Assembly (NCBI RefSeq): GCF_030705415.1
Contig: NZ_JAUZED010000003.1
Coordinates: 1-64,000 of the forward strand
DNA length: 64,000 bases
DNA from: Curtobacterium sp. A7_M15
Lineage (GTDB): Bacteria; Actinomycetota; Actinomycetes; Actinomycetales; Microbacteriaceae
Reading direction: 5' to 3'
Of the stretch, positions 2,469 to 42,590 are shown one piece after another (the stretch's first letter is position 1; the number at the start of each line of letters is the position of its first letter). The notes beneath the pieces are model-generated. The model was given only the letters and a program-made list of their open reading frames with translations, was not told the origin of the DNA and ran no database searches. Made by a program: the position numbers and the translations under genes.

Positions 2469-2474
2469 TATGAT
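2469..2474 (+). promoter_or_regulatory. Putative -10 box giving a leaderless TrlF transcript
   Basis: TATGAT lies 7 bases before ATG 2482, with no Shine-Dalgarno sequence in front of that ATG. This spacing would put the transcription start on or beside the start codon, as in leaderless actinobacterial mRNAs. No convincing -35 element is visible. Confidence 0.4.
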
Positions 2475-2481
2475 CATCCCC

Positions 2482-5400
2482 ATGACAGAGCGCAACCGTG
2501 GGGCCGACTGGAGTATCTGGGACCTGCATGTTCACAGTCCCAGTTCGATTGTTCAAAACTACGGACCCGACGACGAGGAAACTTGGGCGCGCTATATTGA
2601 CGCGCTGGAGGCGCTCCCCAAAGATGTTCGCGTCATTGGCCTGAACGACTACTGGTTTCTTGATGGCTACAACCGCGTTCGCAACGCAAAGCTGTCTGGT
2701 CGACTTCAAAATCTCGACGCGATATTCCCCGTCTTGGAGATGCGCATCGATCAGTTTGGCGGTACCGAAAGCAAGCTTGCCCGAGCAAACCTGCACGTCA
2801 TTTTTGACCCTGAGCTAGAGCCACGGGTGATTCAGCAGCAGTTCCTCGACAGGCTTCACGGGCAATTCTCTCTGACGGATGCGACGGAGGGAGCGGACTG
2901 GAAGGGGGCGGTGACGCGAGAATCTTTGATGGACCTTGGCCGCCAGATGAAGGAAACGGTTCCTGCTGACGAACTGCACAACTTCGATAGCGATCTCGAG
3001 GAAGGCTTCAATCAACTAAACTTACCCCTCGATTCCGTTCTAGACGTTCTCGAGTCGTCGTTCTTGAAGGGGAAGGCGCTTGTGGGTCTGGGAAAAACCG
3101 AGTGGAATGCAATTAAGTGGAAGCAAGCCGTTGCATCCAAACGCAACATCATCTCAAATGCGAAGTTTCTATTCACCGCATTCGAGGACCCCAGTGACTG
3201 GGCGATGCAAGTTGAAAAGCTTAAAGCTCAAAGCGTCAATCATCGACTGTTGGACTGCAGCGACGCACACACCTGGGCTGATTCGACCGAGAAAGACCGC
3301 CTTGGAGCGTGCTCGACTTGGATGAACACCACTCCCACGTTCGCCGGCCTTATTCATGCTATCGACGAGTTCGAAAACCGCGTCTTCGTGGGACTGCAGC
3401 CACCAGCATTGGATCGTGGGCGAAAGGCGCCAGATGAATACGTCGATTCAATTGCAATTCGCCCGAGTGATCCCACAAAATTCCGATCGTTCAATTATGA
3501 ATTGCCGTTGCATAGTGGCTTCGTCGCCATTGTGGGCAACAAGGGCCAAGGTAAGTCAGCACTCCTCGACTGTATTGCGCTAGCTGGCAATTCATCGCGT
3601 AACGCTGAGTTCGCCTTCCTAACTCCAAATTGCTTCCTAACTGCCAGCAACAAAGCGGCAAAGGAGTATGCGTCCACCATCACGTGGCGGACCGCCAAAG
3701 AACGCACGGTCAGTCTCACTGCAAAACACGACCCGGCAGCTCCAGTGCTCGTCGAATACTTGCCGCGGCGATACGTGGAGAAGGTGTGTACGACTGACCC
3801 GCTATCGTTGGAGAGTCACATCTTCGAGAATGAGTTGCGAGATGTGCTGTTCACCCACATTCCCGAGCAGGAGAAAACGGGGGAGACTTCGTTCGAGGGG
3901 TTGATAGCCAGAAAGACTACCGCCGCTCGTGAACAAGTCGCCAGGCTTCGCGCAGAGCTTCGCCGCGAGGCCGATGCGTTCTCCGACTGGTCAGACTTCA
4001 TTGCTGCGAACGTCCCCAGCGAGATCGAAGGGCGTATCGGGCTGAAACGCCTGGACCTGGAGACCGCTGAGGAGGCTCTCGCTGCTGATCGTCAGGTTCT
4101 CGCGGAGTTCGATGCAGCGAGTGGCAACGACCAGACCGTTGGAGCACTTCGCCGGGAATCTGAGGAACTTGCGGCTGCGCGCCAAGGGCTACTCAACGAC
4201 ATCGCGCAGAACCAATTGACTATTGGCTCAATTTCGCGGCAACTTGATGATGCCGATAGGCTAGTGCGTCAAGCGACCGATTTGGGAATAGCCGCGGCAA
4301 TTCTGAATCGAGAGGCGCGCTCGCTGCTTTCATCCGACGAGCAGGCGCAGAATGAAGACTTGGTCACGGTTCGAATCAACCAAGACTGGGTTGAGCGCTG
4401 GCGGGCCTTGCAGCAGGCGCGCAGTGCGTCCGCGAGCTTCACCAATGCAAGTCTGCAGCAGCAGCGTGATGCCGCCGAATCGAGGCTGAACGAACTGGCC
4501 AATGCGTTAGCCGCGGTCGACAGCACGCGAGAATTGGCTCGTCAGCGCGTACTGCAGGGAGAAGAGCGCATTCAAGTAATCAGTGGGAGCATCGATCAAC
4601 ACGGGTCCCTCGTGTTTCTCCAAGCTCTCCTAGATAGAGCAAGGTCGGCGCCTGTGAAGTTGCAGGAATGCCAAAGTCGCCTCATCTCGGTAAGCGAGGA
4701 GATTCATAAAGCTCTACTTTCCGAGCTCGAAGCAGTGCTTGACTTATACGCGCCTGCCTCCAGGTTCATCGCAGACTCTCAGGTTGTGCAAAAGGCCGGC
4801 CTAGAATTCCGGGCGGCACTGGAATTCACGTCCGCAATCCAGCGGCTGAGTGCTTCTCTCGACGGGCGACGTAACACCGACCTGGGCTCGTGGATCGGAG
4901 AGTTGCCGCAGCGAGTCTCTGCGATGAGCTGGGATGACATCTCCGGCGAACTTGCGCTCATAGTGCGACGCCTGGGTACTGATCGTGGGGCCGAGGATGG
5001 CGCAGCCCGGCATGCAGGAGCGGGGCTTCGAGCCGGGACTTCGTTACCCGACTTCCTAGTCGCACTCCTTGACTTGTCTTGGCTTGAAGTGCGTTTCGGT
5101 TTGATTGGCGATGGACTCCCGTTGGCGCAGCTATCCCCGGGGCAGCGGGGGCTTGTGCTGGCTCTGTTCTACCTAATCGTGGACCGTCGCACGACGCCTC
5201 TTTTACTTGATCAGCCCGAGGAAAATCTCGACAATGCGACTATAGCCTCGGTTCTTGTTCCCGCGATACGTGAGGCATCCGCGCGTAGGCAGACCATCAT
5301 CGTGACGCATAATGCAAACTTGGCGGTCGTGGGCGATGCGGATCAGATCGTGCATGCCTCGGTTGCAGATGGTGTGTTTAATGTGAGTAGTGGAAGTATT

Positions 5401-5514
5401 TCCGAGTTGGGTGTCGCTAAGTCGGTAGTCGACATCCTGGAGGGCACAAAGCCAGCGTTCGATAACCGGCGCCATAAGTATGAAGCGTTCCCGCTTCTGA
5501 ACAAAGCAAAGTAG
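2482..5514 (+). CDS. TrlF-like PHP-domain SMC-like ATPase
   Basis: A roughly 1010-residue protein with an N-terminal PHP-type phosphoesterase region: DLHVHSPSS near the start, GLNDYW, and DCSDAHTW around residue 265. An ABC/SMC-type ATPase split by a long helical, Glu/Arg/Ala-rich coiled-coil insert follows. Walker A is VGNKGQGKSALLD (about residue 350). Walker B is LLLDQPEENLDN near the C-terminus, followed by IIVTHNANLAVV. This is the architecture of the TrlF family. Such proteins often occur alone or in defence-type loci and probably couple nucleotide hydrolysis to nucleic acid cleavage, but that is inferred. Codon use is visibly less GC-rich than the neighbours, which suggests transfer. 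ATG 2482 is preferred over 2470 because it fits a leaderless start. Confidence 0.8.
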   Translation: MTERNRGADWSIWDLHVHSPSSIVQNYGPDDEETWARYIDALEALPKDVRVIGLNDYWFLDGYNRVRNAKLSGRLQNLDAIFPVLEMRIDQFGGTESKLARANLHVIFDPELEPRVIQQQFLDRLHGQFSLTDATEGADWKGAVTRESLMDLGRQMKETVPADELHNFDSDLEEGFNQLNLPLDSVLDVLESSFLKGKALVGLGKTEWNAIKWKQAVASKRNIISNAKFLFTAFEDPSDWAMQVEKLKAQSVNHRLLDCSDAHTWADSTEKDRLGACSTWMNTTPTFAGLIHAIDEFENRVFVGLQPPALDRGRKAPDEYVDSIAIRPSDPTKFRSFNYELPLHSGFVAIVGNKGQGKSALLDCIALAGNSSRNAEFAFLTPNCFLTASNKAAKEYASTITWRTAKERTVSLTAKHDPAAPVLVEYLPRRYVEKVCTTDPLSLESHIFENELRDVLFTHIPEQEKTGETSFEGLIARKTTAAREQVARLRAELRREADAFSDWSDFIAANVPSEIEGRIGLKRLDLETAEEALAADRQVLAEFDAASGNDQTVGALRRESEELAAARQGLLNDIAQNQLTIGSISRQLDDADRLVRQATDLGIAAAILNREARSLLSSDEQAQNEDLVTVRINQDWVERWRALQQARSASASFTNASLQQQRDAAESRLNELANALAAVDSTRELARQRVLQGEERIQVISGSIDQHGSLVFLQALLDRARSAPVKLQECQSRLISVSEEIHKALLSELEAVLDLYAPASRFIADSQVVQKAGLEFRAALEFTSAIQRLSASLDGRRNTDLGSWIGELPQRVSAMSWDDISGELALIVRRLGTDRGAEDGAARHAGAGLRAGTSLPDFLVALLDLSWLEVRFGLIGDGLPLAQLSPGQRGLVLALFYLIVDRRTTPLLLDQPEENLDNATIASVLVPAIREASARRQTIIVTHNANLAVVGDADQIVHASVADGVFNVSSGSISELGVAKSVVDILEGTKPAFDNRRHKYEAFPLLNKAK

Positions 5515-5603: not shown

Positions 5604-5637
5604 CGGCCGGACCGTCAGTGTCGTGACGGTCCGGCCG
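5604..5637. terminator. Strong hairpin terminator between trlF-like gene and lsr2
   Basis: A perfect 14-bp stem (arms CGGCCGGACCGTCA and its complement) with a 6-base loop lies between two convergent genes. It could end transcription from both sides. The trailing U-tract is poor on either strand. Confidence 0.7.
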
Positions 5638-5693
5638 GAGCTCCGGGCGAGCGGTGCTCGAATCGAGCGTAGCCCGGGAGAGTGTGCTTTGGG

Positions 5694-6041
5694 TTAGTGA
5701 GCGGCGTTGTAGGCGTCGCGAACGGCCTGGCTGATGCGCCCTCGGGTAGAGACCTCGTGCCCGTTGGCGTTGGCCCACTCCCGGATCTTCGCGAGCTCGT
5801 CGGAGTTGCTGCGCTTAGTGGTGTTGCCACCGCTCGTGCGGCCCTGCCGGCTACCGCTGACCTTGCGGGCGGCGGCTACGTAGTCGGAGAACGCTTCTCG
5901 GAACGCGTCGGCGTTGTCGTCGGTGAGGTCAATCTCGTAGTGGTTGCCGTCGAACGAGAAGGACACGGTGCGGCCCTCACCGTCGTGGATGGTGTCGCCG
6001 GTGAGATCGTCGATGAGGTGCGTGGTGACCTTTTGCGCCAT
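5694..6041 (-). CDS. lsr2: Lsr2 family nucleoid-associated protein (copy 1)
   Basis: A 115-residue Lsr2 protein. The N-terminal dimerisation domain (MAQKVTTHLIDDLTGDT..., FDGNHYEIDLTDDNA) is joined by a Gly/Ser/Arg linker to the C-terminal DNA-binding domain (IREWANANGHEVSTRGRIS), which contains the RGR minor-groove motif. Lsr2 bridges AT-rich DNA and silences foreign genes in Actinobacteria. The gene is divergent from a PD-(D/E)XK nuclease gene, with a shared 120-bp intergenic region. The same pair recurs at 41.4-42.9 kb and the two Lsr2 proteins are about 85% identical by eye. The start ATG has a GAAAGG stretch 12-17 bases upstream. Confidence 0.95.
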   Translation of the reverse strand: MAQKVTTHLIDDLTGDTIHDGEGRTVSFSFDGNHYEIDLTDDNADAFREAFSDYVAAARKVSGSRQGRTSGGNTTKRSNSDELAKIREWANANGHEVSTRGRISQAVRDAYNAAH

Positions 6042-6161
6042 GGGAGCGTCGCCTTTCCATGTGAGACTGGGAGTACGTCAACTGTGGCAGAAGAGCGCGT
6101 GCGGAGTTGGGATTGTCTCCGGGCGCACGCGGATTCGGGTGCGCAGGGCAGGATGGTGTTG
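6042..6161. promoter_or_regulatory. Divergent promoter region of lsr2 / yhcG-like pair (copy 1)
   Basis: The 120-bp spacer between the divergent genes contains TCTGCCACAGT (minus strand, 6081-6091) and a GAAAGGCGACGCTCC stretch before lsr2. Both recur at matching places in the second copy (42481-42590). Conservation of these blocks, while the rest has diverged, suggests they are promoter or operator elements. Confidence 0.5.
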
Positions 6162-7196
6162 ATGTCTTCGAGCACGCCCATTCCATCCGAGTACGGTGCC
6201 GTGTTGGCGGATCTGAAGCGTCAGGTTCGCGACGCTCGCTTCACCGCCCAGCGGCGGGTCAACACTGAGTTGGTGCGCCTGTACTGGGGAATCGGTCGAA
6301 CGATTCTGCAACGGCAGGACGCGGAAGGGTGGGGCAGCAACGTCATCGGCCGACTCGCGACCGACCTGCGGGCCGAGTTCCCCGAGATGAAGGGCTTCTC
6401 GCCGCGCAACCTTGCCTACATGCGGGCCTTCGCGGCGGCGTGGAGTGACGAACGGATTCTGCAACAGGCTGTTGCAGAACTGCCGTGGGGGCACATCACC
6501 GTCCTCCTCGACCGGCTTGACGACCATGCGCTCCGTGACTGGTATGCCGCTCAAGCTGCAGCACATGGATGGTCGCGGAACGTCCTCGAGCACCAGATTC
6601 GCACTACGGCGCACACCCGGCTGCAAGCGGCGCCGACGAACTTCCCCTCGACCTTGCCGGCAGGGGATTCGGACCTGGCGCGGCAGCTGACGAAGGATCC
6701 GTACGTATTGGACTTCCTCGCACTCGACGGCGACGCGAAGGAACGCCACCTCGAGCAGGCTTTGGTGGATCGGATCATCGACACCCTCCGCGAGCTCGGC
6801 GAGGGGTTCGCGTTCGTCGGCCGGCAGGTGCACCTCGACGTCGATGGAGACGACTTCTACGTGGACCTGCTGTTCTTCCACATTGAGCAGCTGCGCTACG
6901 TCGTCATCGAACTGAAGACCGGGAAGTTCAGACCTGAGTACCTCGGTCAGCTCGGCTTCTACGTCGCTCTCGTCGACGACCGACTCCGACGGGCCCAGCA
7001 CGCTGACACTGTCGGGCTGCTCCTGGTTGCAGACAAGAACGACGCGGTCGTCCGGTACTCGCTTGCCGGACAGCACAACCCGATCGGTGTTGCCAGCTAC
7101 GACCTGCTCCCGCCTGCTGTGCGGGCGGCGTTGCCATCGGAAGCGGATCTCGCCGCCGCCATCGGCACCGATGCAACTGATGCAGACCGGGATTGA
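6162..7196 (+). CDS. PDDEXK nuclease domain protein, YhcG/DUF1016 family (copy 1)
   Basis: A 344-residue protein with the N-terminal DUF1016_N domain (LVRLYWGIGRTILQRQ, EFPEMKGFSPRNLAYMRAF, LPWGHITVLLDRL). The C-terminal domain is a PD-(D/E)XK nuclease: DGDDFYVDLLFFH supplies the Asp and YVVIELKTGKF the E-x-K. Family members are stand-alone nucleases linked to recombination, restriction-like loci and phage defence. ATG 6162 is chosen because AGGGCAGG lies 9 bases upstream; ATG 6153 overlaps that site. The gene is divergent from lsr2, and a paralogue about 85% identical by eye is at 41446-42480. Confidence 0.88.
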   Translation: MSSSTPIPSEYGAVLADLKRQVRDARFTAQRRVNTELVRLYWGIGRTILQRQDAEGWGSNVIGRLATDLRAEFPEMKGFSPRNLAYMRAFAAAWSDERILQQAVAELPWGHITVLLDRLDDHALRDWYAAQAAAHGWSRNVLEHQIRTTAHTRLQAAPTNFPSTLPAGDSDLARQLTKDPYVLDFLALDGDAKERHLEQALVDRIIDTLRELGEGFAFVGRQVHLDVDGDDFYVDLLFFHIEQLRYVVIELKTGKFRPEYLGQLGFYVALVDDRLRRAQHADTVGLLLVADKNDAVVRYSLAGQHNPIGVASYDLLPPAVRAALPSEADLAAAIGTDATDADRD

Positions 7197-8677: not shown

Positions 8678-9900
<1,223 letters not shown>

Positions 9901-9904
<4 letters not shown>

Positions 9905-10899
9905 TCCGCGAACCGCTTCTGCAGGCGGAGGAACACTGCCGACACTGCCACCACGATGATGAAGCCGAGCACCGCGAGTGCGGTGGCGAGGCCCATGGAC
10001 TGCGCGGTGGAGCCGAACCCACCGAACCCCGTGCGGTAGAACAGCGTTCCCAACACGTCGGTGGAGTAGTCGGGACCGGCCTGCGAACCCTCCATGATGT
10101 AGATCAGGTCGAAGGTCCCGAAGGCGCCGATGAAGTTCATCGTCGTCATCATGATCAGTGTCGGTCGGATCGACGGGATGAGGACGGACCACAGGATGCG
10201 GAACCGCCCGGCGCCGTCGAGTGCAGCGGCGTCCATGACGTCCTGTGGAACATCGGTCATCGACGCCAGGAAGACCAACACCGGGAACCCCATCCCGACC
10301 CACGCCGTGATCACCGCGATGGTGGGGAGCGCGAGGACGGTGGACCCGAGGAACGGGAGCGCGAGCGCATCGAGGTGCAGGTTGTTGAGCAGCGTCTGGA
10401 GCACACCGGTGTTGGGTTCGAGGTAGACGGTCCAGATGTACGCGATGGCCACCGGCGGCAGCGTGAACGGCAGCATCATGATGATGGAGTACCGCTGCGA
10501 CGCTCGCTCGTTCACGAGCAGCAGGCAGTACGCGAGCCCGAGTCCGAACACGAGCGTGAGCGCCATCGACATCGCGAAGAAGTACAGGTTGTGGCCGATC
10601 GCACGCCAGAACTGCGGTGCGAAGGACGGGTCGAACAGCGCGAATGCGTAGTTCTTCAGTCCGATGAAGTTGACGAGCGGCCCGGTGCCGTCCCAGTTGT
10701 AGAAGCTGTATCGAACCCCCGCGACGAGCGGGTAGATCACGAACAGACCGAACAGGATGAAGGCGGGCACCACGAACGCCGCGAGCGTGAACGCCTGTCG
10801 CCGCGGAACCGGTCTGCGCGTTCTGAGCCGTTGGCGATCCGTCGGCGCGACGACCGGCACGCTGTCGCTCTGGTCGGTGACCTCCGTGGAGAAGGTCAT
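9901..10899 (-). CDS. ABC sugar transporter permease (MalF type)
   Basis: A 332-residue membrane protein with six hydrophobic segments after a basic N-terminus. It has the binding-protein-dependent permease loop (DAAALDGAGRFRILWSVLIPSIRP, the EAA-like motif that contacts the ATPase). It matches carbohydrate-family MalF/UgpA permeases. Its ATG overlaps the stop of the upstream binding-protein gene by one base, and the epimerase follows with a 4-base overlap, so all three are translated from one mRNA. Cargo is inferred from context to be MurNAc, MurNAc-peptide or a peptidoglycan disaccharide. No ABC ATPase gene is present here; a shared MsiK-type ATPase elsewhere is likely. Confidence 0.88.
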
Positions 10900-22578: not shown

Positions 22579-22734
22579 GATGCTGAGAGTCCATTAAGCC
22601 CACGGTGGAACTAAGCCTGTGAACTGGGGTTTTCCTTCGCTCCCCGAACGGGGGCCACCGAGCCGATCTCAGGCTCCTCTTATGCTGCGGGAACTGGACA
22701 GCGGCTCGTGCTGTCCACTGACATTGGGGGTCTC
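22579..22734 (+). repeat. Leader block A, duplicated upstream of both toxin-like genes
   Basis: The block starts with GATGCTGAGAGTCCATTAA and ends with GGGGGTCTC directly before the GTG start. The block before the second gene (28872-29027) has the same ends, the same 156-bp length and shared patches such as GCTCCTCTTA. An imperfect GC-rich stem with TTTT lies where the second copy has a clear hairpin. Confidence 0.65.
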
Positions 22735-25170
22735 GTGCGCACGTTGCTGCACGCTCCGCGCTCGAGGAGGCGCAGCATCGCTGCCGTCACACTCGGTGCG
22801 CTCGCACTGATCGGTTCTCTGCTGGTGGCGACGCCAGCGTCTGCGTTGAACGACACCGGTACCGGTGGTGTGTTCGTCCCGACCACGGGTCGGATCCTGG
22901 ACACGAAGAACAACATCGGCGGCTACTCGACGCCGATGCCCGCGAAGACGTGGCGCACCGTCCAGGTCGCCGGCCTCGCAGGGCTGCCGGATGACGGTTC
23001 GGTCGGTGCCGTGTCGGTCGTTGCGATGGTGGCTGACATCACCACTGCTGGGCAGTTGTTCGGACGTCCGGATGCGGACACGAAGTACACGCTGATGGGG
23101 ATCTACGGCGGGGAGCAGCAGCAGAACACGTCGTTCTCGTCCGTCCTCGCCGTCGGCGCCGACGGCACCATCCAGGTCTACGCCGAAACCAGCGCGCGGC
23201 TGATCCTGGACGTGCAGGGCTACTACACCGCGAACACGGACGGCACCGCCCCGGGCGGGTTCGTGCCGTTGAACGGTAAGCGCGTCGCTGACACCCGCTC
23301 CGGGACGGGCCTGCCGCAGCAGCAGCTCACCACCGGCAAGAGCGCCGTGCTGCAGGTCACCGGCACCGCCGGTGTCCCGGCAGATGCGTCCGCGGTGATC
23401 GTGAACCTGGTTGCGATCAACAGCACGTCGAACGTGGGGTTCCTGACGCCGTACCCGACGGGTGCGGCGCGGCCGGCGAACTCGTTCAACTATGCCGGCG
23501 GCACCACCACGACCATGCAGGCGCAGGTGCAGCTGTCCGCTGACGGCAAGATCACGGTCTACAACGCCAACAGCACCACGGACCTCGCCATCGACGTGCA
23601 GGGGTACTTCACCGCCACCGGGGGCTCCGGTGCGGTGTTCACGCCGGGCTCGGGCCGCATCTTCGACACCCGCGCGACCGGAAACACGATCCTCGCCGGC
23701 AACGAGACCCGCGCGATCGACGTCGCCGGCCAGGCCGGTGTCCCCGTCATGGGATCCGGCATCAACTCCGTCGTCCTCACCCTGACCGCCAACGCCGCGA
23801 ACGGCTCCGGGTGGGGCCGCGTCTGGGCCAACGGCACCAGCGAGCCCGACACCGCATCCCTCCGCTACGACAACGGCACAGTCCGCTCCAACACCATCAC
23901 CGTCCCCGTCGGCGCGAACGGGAAGATCAACCTTCACAACATCGGCAACGGCGCAACCAACTTCATCATCGACGTCCAGGGGTGGTACGCGAACCCTTCC
24001 GCGCCGAGCGTAGTCTGCCCCCAGCCTTACTCGTCCGACGCGGTCATTATTACGCCGGACTCGACCGCCGTCGAGTGCACAATTTCTGCGAGCCCAGCCA
24101 CTACCAGCGGAGAACGCCTCGTTTACGCTGTCGACAGCGAGGATGTGACGCAAGTCGACCTTTCCCAGTCCGCGTCCATAACGACAACCGTTGCAGTGGA
24201 GCTGTCCCGTGGCACTCACTCGATCACGGCTTATCGCGCATACGCAAACGGCGACGGCGCCGACGAAACGGACTACACTTTCACCGTTGGCGACTGGAGC
24301 GCAAGCGCTCTTCAAGGCACTCCCTCTGCTGACGAGGTTACTGACGAGTTGCCTTACCTCGGTGTTTCATTGTCCGAAGAGTACAACTTCCCAACCGACG
24401 CCACCTTCGCGTTCACGGTCTCGACGGATAGCGCTGGAGCAGCGGTTGTATGGGAAAGCGGTGAGCAGGCGGATCAGATCGCACAGACTCCCGGCCTGCC
24501 AGAGGGTGCGTACTTCTGGCATGCGGTAGTTCGAGGCTCCAATGCTCAGGGGGCGACGACGACGCTCACTACCCCAACATTTAGTTTCTCCACATCGGCT
24601 CAGGCTGCGGGAGAAGATGCTAGCGGCACAGCAGCCGCGGACGCGGGCACGTACACCGCCGACTCACCCGTTGAGTCCGACCCGGAGGACACTGCTGCTC
24701 CTCAGCCCGCGATGAGCACGATGCGCACGACCAGGTACGATCCGGTGCCTGCGTGCAGCGCTACCGCCGATCCGAACCACAAGGTTGATGACTCCTTCCC
24801 CCGCAGGCACTGGTCGGGAGTCGTTTCGGGTGGGCATGCTGACCTTGTTTGTGGGACGCCGGGAACCCGAGGGATGCGTCACATTTGGCGGCCGTACCCG
24901 GGCCACATGGACGACTGGATCAGAATTGCGAACAAGTACCCTATGGGCCTTAAGCCTGAAGAACTCATGGTAGGCGCACTCACCACCACTTACGCTAGCC
25001 CTACCAATGTGTCGTACCGGTCCGAAAACGACTCGTACACATACTTGGGCATACTAGAAATTAAAGACCGTAAGGGTCATGTGGTTCGGATCTACACGGT
25101 GAATACTGCGGTAGGAAACGGGAATTGGAAGGTGATTACAGCATTCCCGTCAAACGGCCGGAAGCCCTAA
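22735..25170 (+). CDS. Secreted repeat protein with RNase-like C-terminal domain (polymorphic toxin candidate A)
   Basis: An 811-residue protein with a signal peptide (RRRSIAAVTLGALALIGSLL, cleavage after ASA, residue 37). Three surface repeats of about 120 residues (44-164, 174-294, 299-419) each run from a DT(K/R) motif such as GRILDTK to DVQGY/W. Two Ig-like regions cover about 425-630, then a Ser/Thr/Asp-rich linker. The unique C-terminal domain of about 120 residues (690-811) contains RGMRHIWRPYPGHMDDW and ends with WKVITAFPSNG. The His/Arg start and TAFP end recall BECR/EndoU-like RNase toxins; this is a motif-level guess. GTG 22735 follows GGGGG and is conserved in the paralogue at 29028. 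The C-terminal part is markedly less GC-rich than the repeats. A small ORF follows. Confidence 0.72.
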   Translation: MRTLLHAPRSRRRSIAAVTLGALALIGSLLVATPASALNDTGTGGVFVPTTGRILDTKNNIGGYSTPMPAKTWRTVQVAGLAGLPDDGSVGAVSVVAMVADITTAGQLFGRPDADTKYTLMGIYGGEQQQNTSFSSVLAVGADGTIQVYAETSARLILDVQGYYTANTDGTAPGGFVPLNGKRVADTRSGTGLPQQQLTTGKSAVLQVTGTAGVPADASAVIVNLVAINSTSNVGFLTPYPTGAARPANSFNYAGGTTTTMQAQVQLSADGKITVYNANSTTDLAIDVQGYFTATGGSGAVFTPGSGRIFDTRATGNTILAGNETRAIDVAGQAGVPVMGSGINSVVLTLTANAANGSGWGRVWANGTSEPDTASLRYDNGTVRSNTITVPVGANGKINLHNIGNGATNFIIDVQGWYANPSAPSVVCPQPYSSDAVIITPDSTAVECTISASPATTSGERLVYAVDSEDVTQVDLSQSASITTTVAVELSRGTHSITAYRAYANGDGADETDYTFTVGDWSASALQGTPSADEVTDELPYLGVSLSEEYNFPTDATFAFTVSTDSAGAAVVWESGEQADQIAQTPGLPEGAYFWHAVVRGSNAQGATTTLTTPTFSFSTSAQAAGEDASGTAAADAGTYTADSPVESDPEDTAAPQPAMSTMRTTRYDPVPACSATADPNHKVDDSFPRRHWSGVVSGGHADLVCGTPGTRGMRHIWRPYPGHMDDWIRIANKYPMGLKPEELMVGALTTTYASPTNVSYRSENDSYTYLGILEIKDRKGHVVRIYTVNTAVGNGNWKVITAFPSNGRKP

Positions 25171-25757: not shown

Positions 25758-26339
25758 TCAGGCGGCGGGTGGGTTCGCTCCGCCGCGCTGGATCGCTCGG
25801 TAGACGGTCGAGCGGGCGACACCGAAGAGCTCGGCGATTTCGCTCGTGGTGTGCGTGCCGGCGCGGTGCAGCGCGACCAGGTGCTTCTCCTGTGAGACGG
25901 AGAGTTTGGGCTTCTTCCCGCGGAGCTTGCCCGCGGCCTTGGCGATCGCCATCCCCTCGCGCGTGCGGGCACGGATGAGGTCGGCTTCGAACTCCGCGAC
26001 CATTCCGAGAACGTTGAACAGAAGCCGTCCAACGGGATCGGTTGGGTCGTAGACGGAACCTCCGAGGTTCAACGTCACGCCCTTGCGCGTCAGCTCGTCG
26101 GCGATGTCACGAGCGTCGGGGAGTGATCTGGCGAGGCGATCGAGCTTGGTGACTACCAGGACGTCACCTTTGCGGACCGCGGCAAGAGCTTCGCGGAGCC
26201 CCGGGCGTTCACGGTTTGTTCCAGACATGCCGTGATCGACGTGCACGTTCTCGGGATGGACGCCGAGCGAGTGGAGACCATCCCGCTGCGCGGCGAGGTC
26301 CTGTCCGGAGGTCGAGACGCGGGCGTATCCGACAAGCAT
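25758..26339 (-). CDS. Serine recombinase (resolvase/invertase)
   Basis: A 193-residue resolvase/invertase. The catalytic Ser9 is in GYARVST, with SGTNRERPGLREAL, VTKLDRLARS and the helix E segment FNVLGMVAEFEADLIRART, where VAEFE is conserved. A C-terminal Hin-type helix-turn-helix follows (SEIAELFGVARSTVYRAIQR). Such enzymes resolve or invert DNA between short sites. It lies between the two toxin-like genes, and the repeats just past its stop codon are candidate targets. No strong ribosome binding site precedes the ATG. Confidence 0.9.
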   Translation of the reverse strand: MLVGYARVSTSGQDLAAQRDGLHSLGVHPENVHVDHGMSGTNRERPGLREALAAVRKGDVLVVTKLDRLARSLPDARDIADELTRKGVTLNLGGSVYDPTDPVGRLLFNVLGMVAEFEADLIRARTREGMAIAKAAGKLRGKKPKLSVSQEKHLVALHRAGTHTTSEIAELFGVARSTVYRAIQRGGANPPAA

Positions 26340-28871: not shown

Positions 28872-29027
28872 GATGCTGAGAGTCCGTTAATACCGCCCTG
28901 GTACAACGCCCTCTGACCAGGGCTTTTGTTGCGACCCCCGGATGGGTGGCGCGAAGCTAAGCGGGTGCTCCTCTTACGCTGCGAGGACGGACAGCAACTC
29001 GTGCGGTCTGTTGACATAGGGGGTCTC
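28872..29027 (+). repeat. Leader block B, paralogous to block A
   Basis: It begins GATGCTGAGAGTCCGTTAA and ends GGGGGTCTC before the GTG, 156 bp long as in block A. The 28669-28871 stretch before it holds no gene. Confidence 0.65.
28895..28923 (+). terminator. Rho-independent-type hairpin upstream of toxin-like gene B
   Basis: GCCCTGGT and ACCAGGGC arms with a 13-base loop are followed by TTTTGTT. It sits inside the leader of gene B, about 105 bases before the start. It may stop upstream transcripts or act as an attenuator. Confidence 0.65.
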
Positions 29028-31406
29028 GTGCAACCAGTCCTGCACGCTCCGCGCGCGAGGAAGCGCAGCATTGCTGTCGCGGTTCTCGGCGCGCTCGCAC
29101 TCGTTGCTTCGTTGCTTGTAGCCACGATGCCGGCACATGCTCTAAACGACACCGGCACCGGTGGCGTCTTCGTCCCGGCGACGGGCCGCATCCTTGATAC
29201 GAAGACGGGTACCGGTGGATTCAGCACGCCGATGGAGGCTGGCAAGTACCGGACCATCAAGGTCGCGGGCCTTGCTGGGCTGCCGGATGACGGCTCGGTC
29301 GGCGCGGTCTCATTGAACGCCACCGTTGGAGGCTCCGCTGGTGCGGGGACGCTGTTCGGTCGGCCCGATGCCAACTCTGGTCGGACGACGATGCTGATCT
29401 ATAGCGGCGTCTCCGGTGAGTACACGTCCAACAGCGCCACCGTCGCGGTTGGTGCGGACGGCACGATTCAGGTCATGACCGAGAACGCGACCCGGTTGAT
29501 TCTGGACGTGCAGGGCTACTACACCGCGAACACGGACGGCACGGCCGCGGGCGGGTTCGTGCCCGTCGCTAAGCGCATCGTCGACACCCGCTCCGGCCTC
29601 GGCGCCGCCAAGTCGACGATCGCCCCCGGAAAGAGCATTGATGTGCAGATCACCGGGTCGAACGGGATCCCGTCCGGTGCATCCGGCGTCGTGGTGAACC
29701 TGCTCCCGATCAACAGCACCGACAGCGACGGCTACCTCACCCCATACGCGACCGGAGGGACGAAGCCGCAGAACTCACTGCACTACGCCCCGTCAGTCGC
29801 CGCCTCAATCCAGGCGCAGGTACCGCTGTCGTCGGACGGCAAGATCACCATCGCGAACAGCTCATCGACGGCGAACCTTGTCATCGATCTTCAGGGCTAC
29901 TTCACCGCCGCCGGCACGAGCGGCGCCATCTTCACCCCCTCCTACGGGCGCGCCTACGACTCCAGGGCAACCGGAAACACGGCTCTGGCAAAGAGCGAGA
30001 CCCGTTCCATCCAGATCGCAGGCAAAGCTGGCGTCCCGGTTATGGGCTCCGGCATCACTGCAGTGACGCTGACGCTGATCGTCTCGCACGCCGGTAGCGC
30101 CGGCTACGCGCAGGCCTACGCTGACGGCGCCACGAACCCCGGCACTACGGCAATCAACTTCCAAGCCGACGACATCCGCACAAACACGATCACCGTGCCG
30201 CTCGGTACGAACGGCAAGATCGCTCTCCGCAACGTCGCCGACGCGACGAACTATGTGGTGGACGTGCAGGGCTGGTACTCCTCAGTGACTCCCGCGAAGA
30301 TCACCTGCGGCTCGGTAGCAGCCGGAGCGTGGCTGAAGTCAATTCCGATTGACGGAATCGACTGCACAATTTCCGCGAAGCCGGCCGACCACTCAGATGA
30401 GGTGGTTTCGTACACCCTTGATGACGGTGAACCGACCGACATCGCTTTGAGCGAAACGCAGCCCAGTAGTATTTCTCTGCACGTACCCGGCACCGCTGGG
30501 CGCCATGTGCTGAGCGTTGACGCCGACCAGGCTGACGGGACTGTGTCATCCACCGTCTGGTTCGCAACCTTTGGGGACTGGACGACGACGGCAACGACCT
30601 CCGTCCCGGACAACTCGGATCACGTGTCCCTCACACCTCAACTCGAGGTCTGGGCAGACGACGTTGCGCTTCCCAACGAGGCGACCTACGTCTACCGCAT
30701 TTGGGATCAGCCAGACACAACGCAGGCCCCAGTTAGCACCAGTGATCCGCAATCAGGCGGGTGGTCCGTACCAAGCGGGCTGCTGGTTGACGGCGGAACC
30801 TACTACTGGTCCGCACGAGTTGAGGCCACGCTCGATGGTCAAACCGCGACCCTGACCACTGTCCCTGCTGTGTTCGTTGCCGACTCCTCCGTGTCGGACG
30901 CCCCAGGGGCGCCTGATGACGCTGCGGACTACACGGCGCAGGACGCCGGAACATCTACCACCTCGTACTCCGCACGCGCGACGCGCCCCACGATCCAGCT
31001 AGCTTCAAGCGGCAGCGTGCAGGGGCCTCGGGGAAGTGGCCTGCTATGCAACAAGCACTATCACTACTCGACGTTCAATGCCACCTTTGATATGCAGCGT
31101 GCCTGTGGAACTACTAAGATGGCGTGGGGTTTCCAGGTCAGTGTGGCATTCTGTAGCGGCGCGACTTCTAGTGCCACTGAGCTCGGAATGCAGATTTGGG
31201 ACCACACCAACAGAACGTCTAATACTAATTCTGACCACGTGAAGCATTGCACGTACTTCTTCCATGGAACAATGTCGGGCATCATTGTGGGTCACCAAAT
31301 TAGCTACTACGACAACATCAAGTTCCGTGCGTACAAGTATGGTCAGCCGGGAACGGCATACGTTGACACAAGTGGTATCTTCATTGTCACCGATAGGACA
31401 AAGTGA
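29028..31406 (+). CDS. Secreted repeat protein with unrelated C-terminal domain (polymorphic toxin candidate B)
   Basis: A 792-residue paralogue of the protein at 22735-25170. The signal peptide is the same type (RKRSIAVAVLGALALVASLL, cleavage after AHA), with LNDTGTGGVFVP at the mature start and three DT(K/R)-to-DVQGY/W repeats. Two diverged Ig-like regions follow. The last 140 residues share nothing with the paralogue: a Cys-containing domain (LLCNKHYHYS, MQRACGTTKMAWGF, VAFCSGATSS, VKHCTYFFHG) ending VDTSGIFIVTDRTK. I recognise no toxin family there; it could equally be a surface-binding domain. GC content drops in this last part. The stop overlaps the start of a small ORF (GTGA). Confidence 0.7.
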   Translation: MQPVLHAPRARKRSIAVAVLGALALVASLLVATMPAHALNDTGTGGVFVPATGRILDTKTGTGGFSTPMEAGKYRTIKVAGLAGLPDDGSVGAVSLNATVGGSAGAGTLFGRPDANSGRTTMLIYSGVSGEYTSNSATVAVGADGTIQVMTENATRLILDVQGYYTANTDGTAAGGFVPVAKRIVDTRSGLGAAKSTIAPGKSIDVQITGSNGIPSGASGVVVNLLPINSTDSDGYLTPYATGGTKPQNSLHYAPSVAASIQAQVPLSSDGKITIANSSSTANLVIDLQGYFTAAGTSGAIFTPSYGRAYDSRATGNTALAKSETRSIQIAGKAGVPVMGSGITAVTLTLIVSHAGSAGYAQAYADGATNPGTTAINFQADDIRTNTITVPLGTNGKIALRNVADATNYVVDVQGWYSSVTPAKITCGSVAAGAWLKSIPIDGIDCTISAKPADHSDEVVSYTLDDGEPTDIALSETQPSSISLHVPGTAGRHVLSVDADQADGTVSSTVWFATFGDWTTTATTSVPDNSDHVSLTPQLEVWADDVALPNEATYVYRIWDQPDTTQAPVSTSDPQSGGWSVPSGLLVDGGTYYWSARVEATLDGQTATLTTVPAVFVADSSVSDAPGAPDDAADYTAQDAGTSTTSYSARATRPTIQLASSGSVQGPRGSGLLCNKHYHYSTFNATFDMQRACGTTKMAWGFQVSVAFCSGATSSATELGMQIWDHTNRTSNTNSDHVKHCTYFFHGTMSGIIVGHQISYYDNIKFRAYKYGQPGTAYVDTSGIFIVTDRTK

Positions 31407-31764: not shown

Positions 31765-31949
31765 CATCACCGTCAGCCAGAAGCGCTCCGAAGGATGGAC
31801 AGGTCGCATCAGCGTCAGAAGTGGGTACACCCCAACTGGACGTCAGGCGGCGGTCCTGGCTCGCGTCCGAATAGGGTTCGATTTGGCATTCTCTGACACC
31901 GGTGGCCGCTGGTCTTAGACTTCAACCTGACAGAAGAGGGTCGGAGGCC

Positions 31950-32528
31950 GTGTTGTCGGGTCAGCAGGTTGGGTACGTGCGGGTGAGCACGTTGGATCAG
32001 AGCACGGTGCGGCAGCTTGACGGCATCGCGCTGGATCGTGTGTTCGAGGACAAGGCGTCCGGGAAGGACGTTGACCGCCCGCAGCTTGAAGCGATGATCG
32101 GGTTTGTCCGCGACGGCGACACTGTGCTGGTGCACTCGATGGACCGGCTCGCCCGGAACCTCGAAGACCTCCGCCGACTCGTGCGCCGACTGACGGACAA
32201 GAAGGTCCGCGTCGAGTTCGTCAAGGAGCAACTGACCTTCACAGGAGAAGACAGCGCGATGGCGAACTTGTTGCTGAACATGATGGGAGCGTTTGCCGAG
32301 TTCGAGCGCGAACTGATTCGGGAACGCCAACGCGAGGGCATCGCGCTGGCGAAGCAGCGTGGCGTGTACCGCGGCCGGGCGCGATCGCTTGGTGCGGTGC
32401 AGATCGCAGAGTTGATCAACCGCGCCAGCACCGGAGTGCCGAAGACGGTACTGGCAAGGGAGTACGGCGTCAGCCGAGAGACGGTTTACGCCTACCTCCG
32501 CGCCGCGGCGTCACCCGCGAGCGAGTGA
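31950..32528 (+). CDS. Serine recombinase (resolvase/invertase)
   Basis: A 192-residue resolvase: catalytic Ser13 in VGYVRVSTLDQ, VHSMDRLARNLEDL, the FAEFERELIRERQREG helix, and a C-terminal helix-turn-helix (VLAREYGVSRETVYAYLR). The GTG at 31950 is inferred; TTG 31953 is possible because the GGAGG lies very close. It stands directly downstream of toxin unit B. It is distinct in sequence from the recombinases at 25758 and 33940. Confidence 0.88.
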   Translation: MLSGQQVGYVRVSTLDQSTVRQLDGIALDRVFEDKASGKDVDRPQLEAMIGFVRDGDTVLVHSMDRLARNLEDLRRLVRRLTDKKVRVEFVKEQLTFTGEDSAMANLLLNMMGAFAEFERELIRERQREGIALAKQRGVYRGRARSLGAVQIAELINRASTGVPKTVLAREYGVSRETVYAYLRAAASPASE

Positions 32529-36200: not shown

Positions 36201-37130
36201 ATGATTACCACCACCATCAAGAAGCGCCCCGCGAAGTCCCGTCGCACGTCCGTCAGCCCGGAGCAGCGGAAGGAGCAGGCCGCCGCGCTCCACGAGTCGA
36301 TGGCAACGCAGGTTGAGCAGCTGCGCGACTCGGACCGGTGGACCGCGTTCCTGCAGTTCGCGGCCGCGTTCCACGCCTACAGCCTGAACAACGTGTTGTT
36401 GATCCTCAGCCAGCGGCCCGACGCCGAACGCGTGGCCGGCTTTCGGAAGTGGCAGGCCCTCGGCCGCCAGGTCCGTAAGGGGGAGAAGTCGCTCCGCATC
36501 TTCGGCTACAGCACCAAGAAGGTGACCGAGGAGGACGAGAACGGCGAGACGCGAGAGAAGCGTTACCCCCGGTTCCCGATCCTGCCGGTGTTCGATATCG
36601 CCCAGACGGACCCGATCGACCCGGACGCAGACGACCCGTCGACGCTCACCGCCCCGCTGACCGGCACCGACGACCACGGCGTCATCGATGCCCTGACCGC
36701 GCACCTGGTCGCGGACGGGTGGACCGTCGAGCACACCGAGCCGGGGCAGCACCGCAACGGGTTCACCGACCCCGAGGCTCGTCGCGTCGTGATCGGCTCG
36801 CACCTGTCCCCGGAGCACGCCGCGAAGACGCTGATTCACGAGCTCGCGCACATCGTCCTTGGCCACGTCGACGACCTGTCCGAGTACGCCGAGCACCGTG
36901 GCCTCATGGAAACCGAGGCCGAGTCCGTGGCCTACGTCGTCGCCGGACTGGTCGGGTTCGACACCGCCGCCTACAGCGTCGGTCACGTCGCCGGGTGGTG
37001 GCGCGCGTCGTCCCACTTGCTTCGGGCTTGCCAGCCGCGCCGAAAAGCGTCCTGGCGGCTCGGGCCTCGCGCAGTTGGCTCGGCAGGAACTCCGCACCGC
37101 GGAGGATGTCGATGCCCTCTTGGCGGATGA
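36201..37130 (+). CDS. ArdC-like ssDNA-binding / ImmA-IrrE metallopeptidase protein, 3' end replaced
   Basis: The N-terminal ArdC-type ssDNA-binding domain (RWTAFLQFAAAFHAYSLNNV, LILSQRPDAERVAGFRKWQ, RQVRKGEKSLRIFGY) is followed by a zinc peptidase domain with HELAHIVLGH (HExxH) and the Glu-containing METEAESVAYVVAGL. Such proteins protect incoming conjugative DNA in plasmids and ICEs. GAAAGGACC precedes the ATG. After YSVGHVAGWW (about 37005) the sequence no longer fits the family. The frame runs on through out-of-frame VapB-like sequence, so the last 40 residues are foreign. Confidence 0.8.
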   Translation: MITTTIKKRPAKSRRTSVSPEQRKEQAAALHESMATQVEQLRDSDRWTAFLQFAAAFHAYSLNNVLLILSQRPDAERVAGFRKWQALGRQVRKGEKSLRIFGYSTKKVTEEDENGETREKRYPRFPILPVFDIAQTDPIDPDADDPSTLTAPLTGTDDHGVIDALTAHLVADGWTVEHTEPGQHRNGFTDPEARRVVIGSHLSPEHAAKTLIHELAHIVLGHVDDLSEYAEHRGLMETEAESVAYVVAGLVGFDTAAYSVGHVAGWWRASSHLLRACQPRRKASWRLGPRAVGSAGTPHRGGCRCPLGG

Positions 37131-41445: not shown

Positions 41446-42480
41446 TCAGCTGTCGTTGCCGATGTCGTGCAGTGCGGTTGTGAGGTCCGCTTCTGACGGA
41501 AGCGCTGCTTGCACCGCCGGCGGCAGGAGGTCATAGCTGGCCACCCCGATCGGGCTCTGCTGTCCGGCGAGGGAGTACCGGACGACGGCGTCGTTCTTGT
41601 CCGCGACGAGGAGCAGTCCGACGGTGTCCGCGTGCTGGGCGCGGCGGAGCCGGTCGTCGACGAGGGCGACGTAGAAGCCGAGCTGGCCGAGGTACTCGGG
41701 CTTGAACTTGCCGGTCTTGAGCTCGATGACGACGTAGCGGAGCTGCTCGACGTGGAAGAAGAGCAGGTCGACGTAGAAGTCGTCCCCGTCGACATCGAAG
41801 TGCACCTGCCGGCCCACGAACGCGAACCCCTCGCCGAGCTCGCGGAGGGTGTCGATGATCCGGTCGACGAGCGCCTGCTCGAGGTGGCGTTCCTTCGCAT
41901 CGCCGTCGAGCGCGAGGAAGTCCAGCACGTACGGATCCTTCGTCAGCTGCTGCGCGAGATCCGAGTCGCCCGCGGGCAGTGTTGCGGGGAAGTTCGACGG
42001 TGCCGCTTGCAGCCGGGCGTGGGCGCCGGTCTTGATCTGGTGCTCGAGCACGTTCCGCGACCACCCGTGCGCTGCAGCGTGTGCGGCATACCAGTCGCGG
42101 AGCTCCTGGTCGTCGAGCCGGTCCAGGAGGACCGTGATGTGGCCCCAGGGCAGTTCTGCAACAGGCTGTTGCAGATTCCGCTCGTCGTCCCATGCGGCGG
42201 CGAACGCCCGCATGTACGCGAGGTTCCGCGGCGAGAAGCCTTTCATCTCCGGGAACTCCGCCCGAAGATCCGTTGCGAGTCGACCAATGACGTTGCGGCC
42301 CCAGCCTTCCTCCTCCTGCCGGCGCAGAATCGATGCGCCGATCCCCCAGTACAGGCGCACCAGCTCCGTGTTCACGCGCCGCTGCGCGGTGAACCGCGCC
42401 TGGCGCACCTGGCGCTTCAGGTCGGCCAGCGCGGCGGCGTACCCGGACGGGATCGGAGCGGCCTCAGTCATCGCACCCAT
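41446..42480 (-). CDS. PDDEXK nuclease domain protein, YhcG/DUF1016 family (copy 2)
   Basis: A 344-residue paralogue of the nuclease at 6162-7196. It keeps the DUF1016 N-terminal domain (LVRLYWGIGASILRRQ, FSPRNLAYMRAFAAAWDDE) and the PD-(D/E)XK core (DGDDFYVDLLFFH and YVVIELKTGKF). Differences are scattered single substitutions (for example HFDVDGDD for HLDVDGDD), so the copies diverged a while ago and both look intact. It starts at ATG 42480 (ATG 42471 is possible), divergent from lsr2 copy 2. Confidence 0.88.
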   Translation of the reverse strand: MGAMTEAAPIPSGYAAALADLKRQVRQARFTAQRRVNTELVRLYWGIGASILRRQEEEGWGRNVIGRLATDLRAEFPEMKGFSPRNLAYMRAFAAAWDDERNLQQPVAELPWGHITVLLDRLDDQELRDWYAAHAAAHGWSRNVLEHQIKTGAHARLQAAPSNFPATLPAGDSDLAQQLTKDPYVLDFLALDGDAKERHLEQALVDRIIDTLRELGEGFAFVGRQVHFDVDGDDFYVDLLFFHVEQLRYVVIELKTGKFKPEYLGQLGFYVALVDDRLRRAQHADTVGLLLVADKNDAVVRYSLAGQQSPIGVASYDLLPPAVQAALPSEADLTTALHDIGNDS

Positions 42481-42590
42481 TGTGCCGTGCTCGGCCCACC
42501 GTCACACGCCGCACGTGTTCACGAACGCAGCCGACGTTTCTGCCACAGTAGAAAGGAAACACCCCCATCCCCACGAAAGGCGGCGTTCCT
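42481..42590. promoter_or_regulatory. Divergent promoter region of lsr2 / yhcG-like pair (copy 2)
   Basis: The 110-bp spacer keeps TCTGCCACAGT (42539-42549) and GAAAGGCGGCGTTCC before lsr2, as in copy 1. Intervening sequence differs, which marks these as the conserved elements. Confidence 0.5.

Follow-up and report, generated by a model that had tools for sequence, protein, structure and literature searches.

Divergent pairing of an accessory lsr2 gene with a YhcG-type nuclease gene in Curtobacterium

Why a gene for the nucleoid-associated protein Lsr2 should stand head to head with a nuclease gene, twice in one stretch of DNA, is the question raised by contig C155 of Curtobacterium sp. A7_M15, which belongs to a plant- and soil-associated genus. 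The 64,000-nucleotide stretch of this contig that was analyzed (the window) carries two loci, 36 kb apart, in which an lsr2 gene is transcribed divergently from a gene of the YhcG (DUF1016) nuclease family. The original prediction, made from the sequence alone, had described this head-to-head layout at both loci; the coordinates confirm it, and all four proteins of both pairs exceed the Pfam cut-offs for their domains. The pairs are mutually inverted, with their nuclease genes pointing at each other. The identity between the loci, predicted as about 85% for the proteins, was measured as 89% for the nuclease (303/341; 84% at the DNA level) and 88% for Lsr2 (100/114; 86% at the DNA level).

The genome of the window contains two YhcG matches and three lsr2 matches in total, and a search of this genome with the nuclease found no YhcG gene beyond the two pairs. 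The third lsr2 lies on a separate contig, with a G+C content of 71% vs about 65% for the window, and is flanked by ribonuclease HII-like and ComM/Mg-chelatase-like genes (labels read from the translations by eye); we take it as the chromosomal gene, and the paired lsr2 genes are referred to as accessory.

Pairing within and beyond Curtobacterium

The sample consisted of 66 Curtobacterium genomes, one per species and including that of the window, all of which were searched with the nuclease; 39 gave a match. Matches that cluster with the two nucleases of the window, with 74 to 100% identity over most of the gene, are designated clade A, which also takes in shorter fragments assigned by identity or position. 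Clade A comprises 21 intact nucleases in 18 genomes, and each of the 21 has an intact divergent lsr2 gene; in the 66 genomes, no intact clade-A nuclease without lsr2 was found (0/21). Pairing was read from coordinates for 60 genomes and from the sequence for all 21 pairs, and the neighbor analysis used 45 of 49 nuclease rows (the second fragments of four genes were dropped), 25 of which have a divergent lsr2. The pairing, which the original prediction would have abandoned had it been limited to this strain, is found as 21 intact pairs in 18 of the 66 genomes. The paired nucleases group as one clade in a 62-row tree, where a single change of label accounts for all 21 of them, at a node with a Shimodaira-Hasegawa-like approximate likelihood ratio test (SH-aLRT) value of 86. 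The simplest reading of this tree is that the pairing arose once.

The Curtobacterium matches outside clade A belong to other YhcG clades or are short fragments. The former, intact or broken, are in G024, G039 (twice), G008, G002:C14, G058:C5, G044, G048, and G059:C23 and, for the rest, in G003, G015, G023, G046, G050:C20, G061, and G064, and several of the loci of these clades share one setting; the short fragments are in G006, G007, G014:C1, G020, G030, G052, and G060. All 60 Curtobacterium genomes that were searched for lsr2 have at least one copy.

Broken nucleases behave differently from intact ones. Of 14 broken clade-A nucleases, seven keep an intact divergent lsr2 (G013, G027, G033, G051 twice, G055, and G059; one of these seven is a remnant of about 50% identity that was taken in by position) and seven lack one: only a fragment of lsr2 is present in G001, the intact lsr2 near the G002 nuclease is not divergent, and no lsr2 was found in the stretch fetched for G012, G014, G034, G035, and G047. 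Nuclease state and lsr2 state are associated in this set of 21 intact and 14 broken genes (Fisher p = 0.0005), which is suggestive, although not proof, that the nuclease depends on lsr2. Accessory lsr2 genes also stand alone, 16 of them among the 47 lsr2 rows analyzed; these rows are a selection, and the solo genes are those that were fetched. One solo lsr2 gene in G012 (contig C1, near 89 kb) keeps, as judged by eye, a decayed nuclease start, and it lies outside the count of seven.

Beyond the genus, the pairing was not found. A public genome collection gave 286 relatives of the nuclease, the best 80 of which comprise 20 Curtobacterium and 60 non-Curtobacterium loci. The former overlap with the 66 genomes and add nothing to the counts above; 18 have a divergent lsr2, one has none, and one has a nondivergent lsr2. 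Among the 60 non-Curtobacterium loci of these best 80 (35 of them Actinobacteria by title; flanks up to 6 kb, some shorter), divergent lsr2 was not found, and a single Rhodococcus locus has lsr2 about 2.5 kb off and on the same strand as the nuclease. YhcG is present in 7 of 216 genomes sampled across the class, including that of the window, and none of the other six has lsr2 within 1.5 kb of it. Likewise, lsr2 was found near none of the YhcG relatives at 44 viral loci (flanks of 3 kb or less), and annotation places Lsr2 within 3.5 kb on none of five plasmids from other genera. The original prediction had proposed counting divergent lsr2 and DUF1016 neighbors across Actinobacteria; they were found in only one clade of one genus. 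A general actinobacterial pairing is not supported, as neither the 60 non-Curtobacterium public loci, the six other class genomes, nor the viral loci gave a divergent lsr2.

Divergence, plasmid carriage, and mobility of the pair

The two pairs of the window have diverged considerably. Synonymous (dS) and nonsynonymous (dN) divergence between the copies are 0.69 and 0.056 for the nuclease and 0.57 and 0.064 for lsr2, and comparison of the contig (84,298 bases) with itself confines the match between the copies to positions 5693 to 7159 vs 42936 to 41474, that is, to just the two genes. A recent duplication of the pair, which was considered, is ruled out by these dS values together with the confinement of the match to the genes, so the segmental duplication named in the original prediction as a ground for giving up the unit does not apply; the homology stops near the gene ends. 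In the tree, the window copies join (SH-aLRT 84) on long branches, which leaves both an old duplication and two separate arrivals possible.

The pair is carried on plasmids as well as chromosomes. The nuclease matches 474 plasmid records in PLSDB, including 20 from Curtobacterium, and 296 records match Lsr2, many of them actinobacterial plasmids; 29 Curtobacterium records match the accessory Lsr2. A divergent lsr2 lies beside the nuclease in 18 of the 19 Curtobacterium plasmid records with a listed nuclease match (by coordinates or annotation, and including NZ_CP126261), many of which are near-identical strains. In one of the 18 paired records the nuclease is in two pieces, and the unpaired exception has a truncated nuclease. 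Chromosomal copies are seen in the single-contig genomes G007 and G062.

The surroundings of the pair change while its center does not. By a 200-base criterion, the 21 pairs stand in 17 left and 19 right contexts, and only the middle junction is kept throughout (21/21). In 207 of 210 comparisons between pairs, namely, those under 92% identity, similarity at the DNA level mostly runs out no more than 90 bases beyond lsr2 and, on the other side, near the end of the nuclease gene (-16 to +78 bases relative to where the matched domain ends, 5 to 95% range). The stable, unit-like pairing that had been predicted is thus borne out: all intact nucleases keep the divergent lsr2, and the outer flanks nearly all differ. 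Serine-recombinase-like genes lie near some pairs (cluster 2 of the neighborhood clustering, six Curtobacterium loci), and in the same clustering no mobility gene adjoins every pair. At the module ends the homology just stops, and no mobility signal was seen there, short repeats not having been specifically searched. Lsr2 and nuclease distances correlate (r = 0.55; none of 9,999 permutations was as high), each nuclease half correlates with lsr2 at 0.50, and the two halves correlate with each other at 0.61; shared descent contributes to the correlation between Lsr2 and nuclease. The best explanation of these results is that the lsr2-nuclease pair travels between plasmids and chromosomes as a unit of about 1.5 kb.

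As for the contig of the window, it carries transposase-like genes (translations read by eye) and has no terminal overlap. The lower G+C content of the window (about 65%, vs 71% for the contig of the third lsr2) fits the drop in plasmid G+C described by Finks et al. (PMC10999282). When positions 1 to 25000 and 25001 to 50000 were compared with PLSDB plasmids, near matches covered 6% of the query or less, among the matches listed. Similar sequences in inverted orientation (92% identity) occupy both contig ends (C155:1-327 and 83977-84298), with transposase-like frames near the far end, and the assembly probably broke at an insertion element there.

Protein domains and gene surroundings

Both nuclease copies match DUF1016_N and YhcG_C (PF17761 and PF06250) over their full length, with scores of 147 to 172 bits vs cut-offs near 33. 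The PD-(D/E)XK residues Glu201, Asp238, Glu253, and Lys255 are invariant in all 21 intact clade-A proteins, and Asp238 and Lys255 are also invariant in the 39-row alignment A2. The protein is predicted to cut DNA. Selection on the nuclease is uneven: dN/dS is 0.046 for the catalytic domain vs 0.158 for the N-terminal domain, and mean identity is 95% vs 81%. Catalysis thus appears to be guarded while the N-terminal domain varies, as would be expected of a specificity part. A sequence search found no solved structure of a relative of the nuclease. AlphaFold modeled the whole protein with middling confidence (predicted local distance difference test [pLDDT] score of 68); the C-terminal part of this model is nearest to EndoMS/NucS (Z-scores = 9.0 and 8.7), followed by McrBC (8.3). 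The N-terminal domain modeled alone has a pLDDT of 92, and its top 11 structural matches are all ParB/Noc/Spo0J proteins (Z-score = 6.7 to 8.4, 93 to 103 residues, root mean square deviation = 2.5 to 3.8), followed by Raf1 (6.5 to 5.3), SopB (4.7), and others at 3.7 and below. This domain likely takes a ParB/Noc-like DNA-binding fold, as judged from the model. In Lsr2, the domains PF11774 and PF23359 are over the cut-offs in both copies, and copy 2, the only one compared, matches solved Lsr2 chains.

When relatives are aligned, their nuclease start falls at the second ATG (positions 6162 and 42471), before which lies a conserved minus-10-like box. The box may be a minus-10 element and the nuclease message leaderless; a sigma-70 scan over the pair-1 region gave no match. 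The features of the window are listed in Table 1.

Table 1. Positions of the paired genes, associated features, and related loci (window coordinates unless a locus is given)
Feature	Position	Strand	Remarks
Accessory lsr2 copy 1, 115 aa	5694..6041	-	Lsr2 dimerization domain and Lsr2 DNA-binding domain
Divergent intergenic region, pair 1	6042..6161		111 bases to first ATG (6153), 120 to ATG 6162
Conserved block upstream of lsr2 copy 1, promoter-like	6078..6091	-	Many solo accessory lsr2 genes have the same block
YhcG/DUF1016 nuclease copy 1, 347 aa	6153..7196	+	Start at 6162 likelier from relatives
YhcG/DUF1016 nuclease copy 2, 344 aa	41446..42480	-	Alternative start at 42471
Divergent intergenic region, pair 2	42481..42590		110 bases
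Conserved block upstream of lsr2 copy 2	42539..42552	+	
Accessory lsr2 copy 2, 114 aa	42591..42935	+	
Terminator-like hairpin downstream of lsr2 copy 1	5604..5637	-	Consensus match only; 1 found vs mean of 0.7 in shuffles
TrlF-family AAA-like ATPase, pair 1 neighbor	2470..5514	+	Context, outside the module
Solo accessory lsr2 genes with AAA ATPase-like partner	L121:1698-2039, L138:2448-2789, L145:3032-3373, L159:2789-3130		Genomes G006, G013, G028, G042

The nuclease matches the PADLOC candidate PDC-S02 (PDLC04795) over its full length (E = 4.6e-141 and 6e-142). The flanks of 17 pairs gave a list of 34 proteins, from which 20, belonging to 12 pairs, were hand-picked and compared with PADLOC; five of the 20 match its models at E = 1e-5 or better, namely, an OLD/Gabija-like ATPase, a 4TM effector, a TrlF-like ATPase, a weak PDC-M28C match, and a PifA-like KAP NTPase; among 10 hand-picked window proteins that served as controls, there was no match. 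Pair 1 has the TrlF gene on its lsr2 side, as does a pair of another genome with a similar gene (L043:2380-5412), and DNA similar to the TrlF region of pair 1 is found in the same place at one G030 pair (88% over 918 bases). Four of 89 neighborhoods of YhcG relatives (L063, L085, L092, and L114) contain a gene of cluster 12, which resembles type I restriction methyltransferase subunits by eye; these neighbors echo a link in Methanosarcina reported in 2005 (PMC1189080). An AAA ATPase-like gene (about 380 to 390 aa, with a P-loop-like motif recognized by eye) is a second recurrent partner of accessory lsr2 and is the next gene upstream in 4 of the 16 solo loci, where it has the same orientation and lies about 77 to 80 bases off.

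Further genes of the window include a Fic-domain gene in the segment 32637 to 34536, which has a gene with a weak VbhA-antitoxin match (below the Pfam cut-off) before it and a serine resolvase gene after it; other resolvases at 25758 to 26339 and 31902 to 32528; and an ArdC-like antirestriction gene at 36201 to 37130. Positions 22579 to 23988 and 28872 to 30278 are related to each other (68.5% identity) and lie in large open frames; both regions match Curtobacterium plasmid genes whose annotation is cutinase family. Positions 9736 to 9801, about 66 bases that are nearly all C, lie in a putative enolase-superfamily epimerase frame (8678 to 10303, minus strand); the run is unusually long for a bacterial homopolymer and is possibly a sequencing artifact or a hypermutable tract.

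Function of the pair and comparison with known systems

We hold with moderate confidence that the pair is a mobile nuclease directed against foreign or competing DNA, with the accessory Lsr2 as its dedicated restraint. The effector would be the YhcG-type protein, with its predicted ParB/Noc-like DNA-binding domain at the N terminus and its intact PD-(D/E)XK domain, and it would attack incoming or competing DNA, either phage or plasmid. Its partner, a paralogue of the chromosomal silencer transcribed in the opposite direction from the same short intergenic region, would lower nuclease expression, cover resident DNA, or both, and thereby make the module tolerable to its carrier. Both the defensive role and the repression or licensing by Lsr2 are inferences.

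Several results weigh against this reading, and the chief of them, which speaks against Lsr2 simply silencing the promoter of the nuclease gene, comes from the shared intergenic region. This region is not AT-rich: its G+C content averages about 60% over 27 sequences (including six loci with a broken nuclease) and is 63 to 65% in the window. Conserved within it are the lsr2 ribosome-binding region, a 14-base block lying about 25 to 50 bases ahead of lsr2, and a box where the nuclease gene starts, and in the intergenic sequences compared we found neither an AT-rich core nor an operator or promoter element specific to the pair. The 14-base block is also recognized in front of 11 of the 16 solo genes (shuffle p of 0.008 or less), so the block belongs to lsr2. 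The conserved promoter blocks of the original prediction are therefore real, but the one on the lsr2 side is shared with solo genes, and a classic AT-rich Lsr2 operator, as its idea of a silencer of AT-rich DNA would lead one to look for, is not evident at the shared promoter. The nuclease also has relatives that stand without a neighboring lsr2, both in other genera and in the other Curtobacterium YhcG clades (about 58 to 72% identical). The loci counted share ancestry and are not independent, and the excess of 7:0 for lsr2 kept over nuclease kept among half-decayed pairs could in part arise because the nuclease is a three times larger target; with this size allowed for, the asymmetry by itself is not significant (0.75^7 = 0.13). 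Lsr2 is less constrained than the nuclease (median whole-gene dN/dS of 0.26 vs 0.12). The comparison of neighbors with PADLOC is small, and its flanking and control proteins were hand-picked. With regard to the fold of the N-terminal domain, helical models can reach a Z-score of 8 by a common arrangement or by chance, and no Foldseek match reached E = 0.001 (best values of 1.6e-3 for the whole model and 0.54 for the N-terminal domain).

The alternative that survives best, although we consider it only a tentative possibility, is that the two genes are functionally unlinked cargo, each useful or selfish by itself, joined once and mobilized together by recombination between plasmids; their junction would persist only because the conserved stretch common to both is a target of that recombination. 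A single origin of the pairing, as the simplest reading of the tree, would suit it, as would the 16 accessory lsr2 genes without a nuclease, four of which have another recurrent neighbor in the AAA-ATPase-like gene, and the presence of the lsr2-side block before many of them. However, the inner junction is kept in every intact case and the outer junctions almost never, no intact clade-A nuclease stands alone, and the homology merely ends near the gene ends, with no mobility gene that adjoins every pair.

It is unlikely that the pair discriminates self from nonself through chromatin, with Lsr2 coating AT-rich resident DNA and the nuclease either cutting uncoated DNA or being drawn to Lsr2-bound foreign DNA. 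Lsr2 would then be a protecting mark and no repressor of the nuclease gene, in a counterpart of restriction-modification where a nucleoid protein replaces methylation. The stable pairing fits such a scheme, as do the finding of intact nucleases only with lsr2 and the survival of lsr2 beside broken ones, and an intergenic region that is not AT-rich would fit a role outside gene regulation; yet an lsr2 gene is present in every Curtobacterium genome searched for it, such that an accessory copy is not obviously needed for coating, and nuclease relatives outside the genus lack a divergent lsr2. A restriction-like variant, in which the accessory Lsr2, in place of a methylase, would mark self and determine what a ParB-like/NucS-like YhcG nuclease may cut, and the pair would spread on plasmids as a defense or plasmid-exclusion device, is a little more doubtful still. 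Least probable is an addiction module, in which plasmid loss would remove Lsr2 and leave a long-lived nuclease to damage the cell: many copies are plasmid-borne and paired, and the asymmetry of decay is of the kind expected from a toxin-antidote pair, but the genes diverge instead of forming an operon, copies persist on the chromosomes of G007 and G062, and nuclease relatives occur with no lsr2 antidote alongside.

A restrained nuclease, the reading that we prefer, can be compared with known systems in four respects. The first is the YhcG/DUF1016 family itself (COG4804; PF17761 and PF06250), which has the same domains over the full length and the same catalytic signature; what differs here is that one clade has a fixed partner and that the model of its N-terminal domain resembles the DNA-binding domains of ParB/Noc. 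Feder and Bujnicki (2005) assign the family an E-D-E(I/L/V)K motif and a kinship to DUF91 (PMC1189080), with which the EndoMS/NucS fold nearest to the C-terminal part is in line.

The second is PDC-S02, which is alike in its profile match over the full length and different in that the arrangement here has two genes, one of them for Lsr2. The PDC-S designation presumably denotes a single-gene candidate class in PADLOC. One genome paper lists a PDC-S02 for Paenarthrobacter (PMC11719660). In searches of openly licensed papers, we saw neither an experimental test of the YhcG nuclease/PDC-S02 family nor a report of the lsr2-YhcG pairing.

The third comparison is with plasmid xenogeneic silencers (Sfh, Pmr, Acr2, and plasmid Lsr2), which are likewise horizontally carried paralogues of a chromosomal silencer. 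The authors of a 2020 review were aware of no publication that addresses what Lsr2 homologues encoded on plasmids do (PMC7074111), and Finks et al. (2024) name lsr2 as the one gene common to 38% of 26 Curtobacterium plasmids (PMC10999282); the term "nuclease" is absent from the main text of both papers. The pairing thus joins two puzzles, the function of plasmid Lsr2 and that of the YhcG nuclease, both of which can be tested in a culturable genus. If Lsr2 does restrain or license the nuclease, xenogeneic silencing and DNA destruction would be joined in one mobile module.

The last comparison is with restriction-modification and toxin-antitoxin modules. Toxin-antitoxin genes usually form a codirectional operon. 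Like both kinds of module, the pair contains a potentially harmful nuclease that is never found intact without its partner gene, as would hold for a toxin and its antidote (0/21 in clade A). The genes here diverge, however, and the conserved unit consists of lsr2 and the nuclease only, with no cognate methyltransferase; the partner is a nucleoid-associated protein instead of a methyltransferase or a conventional antitoxin.

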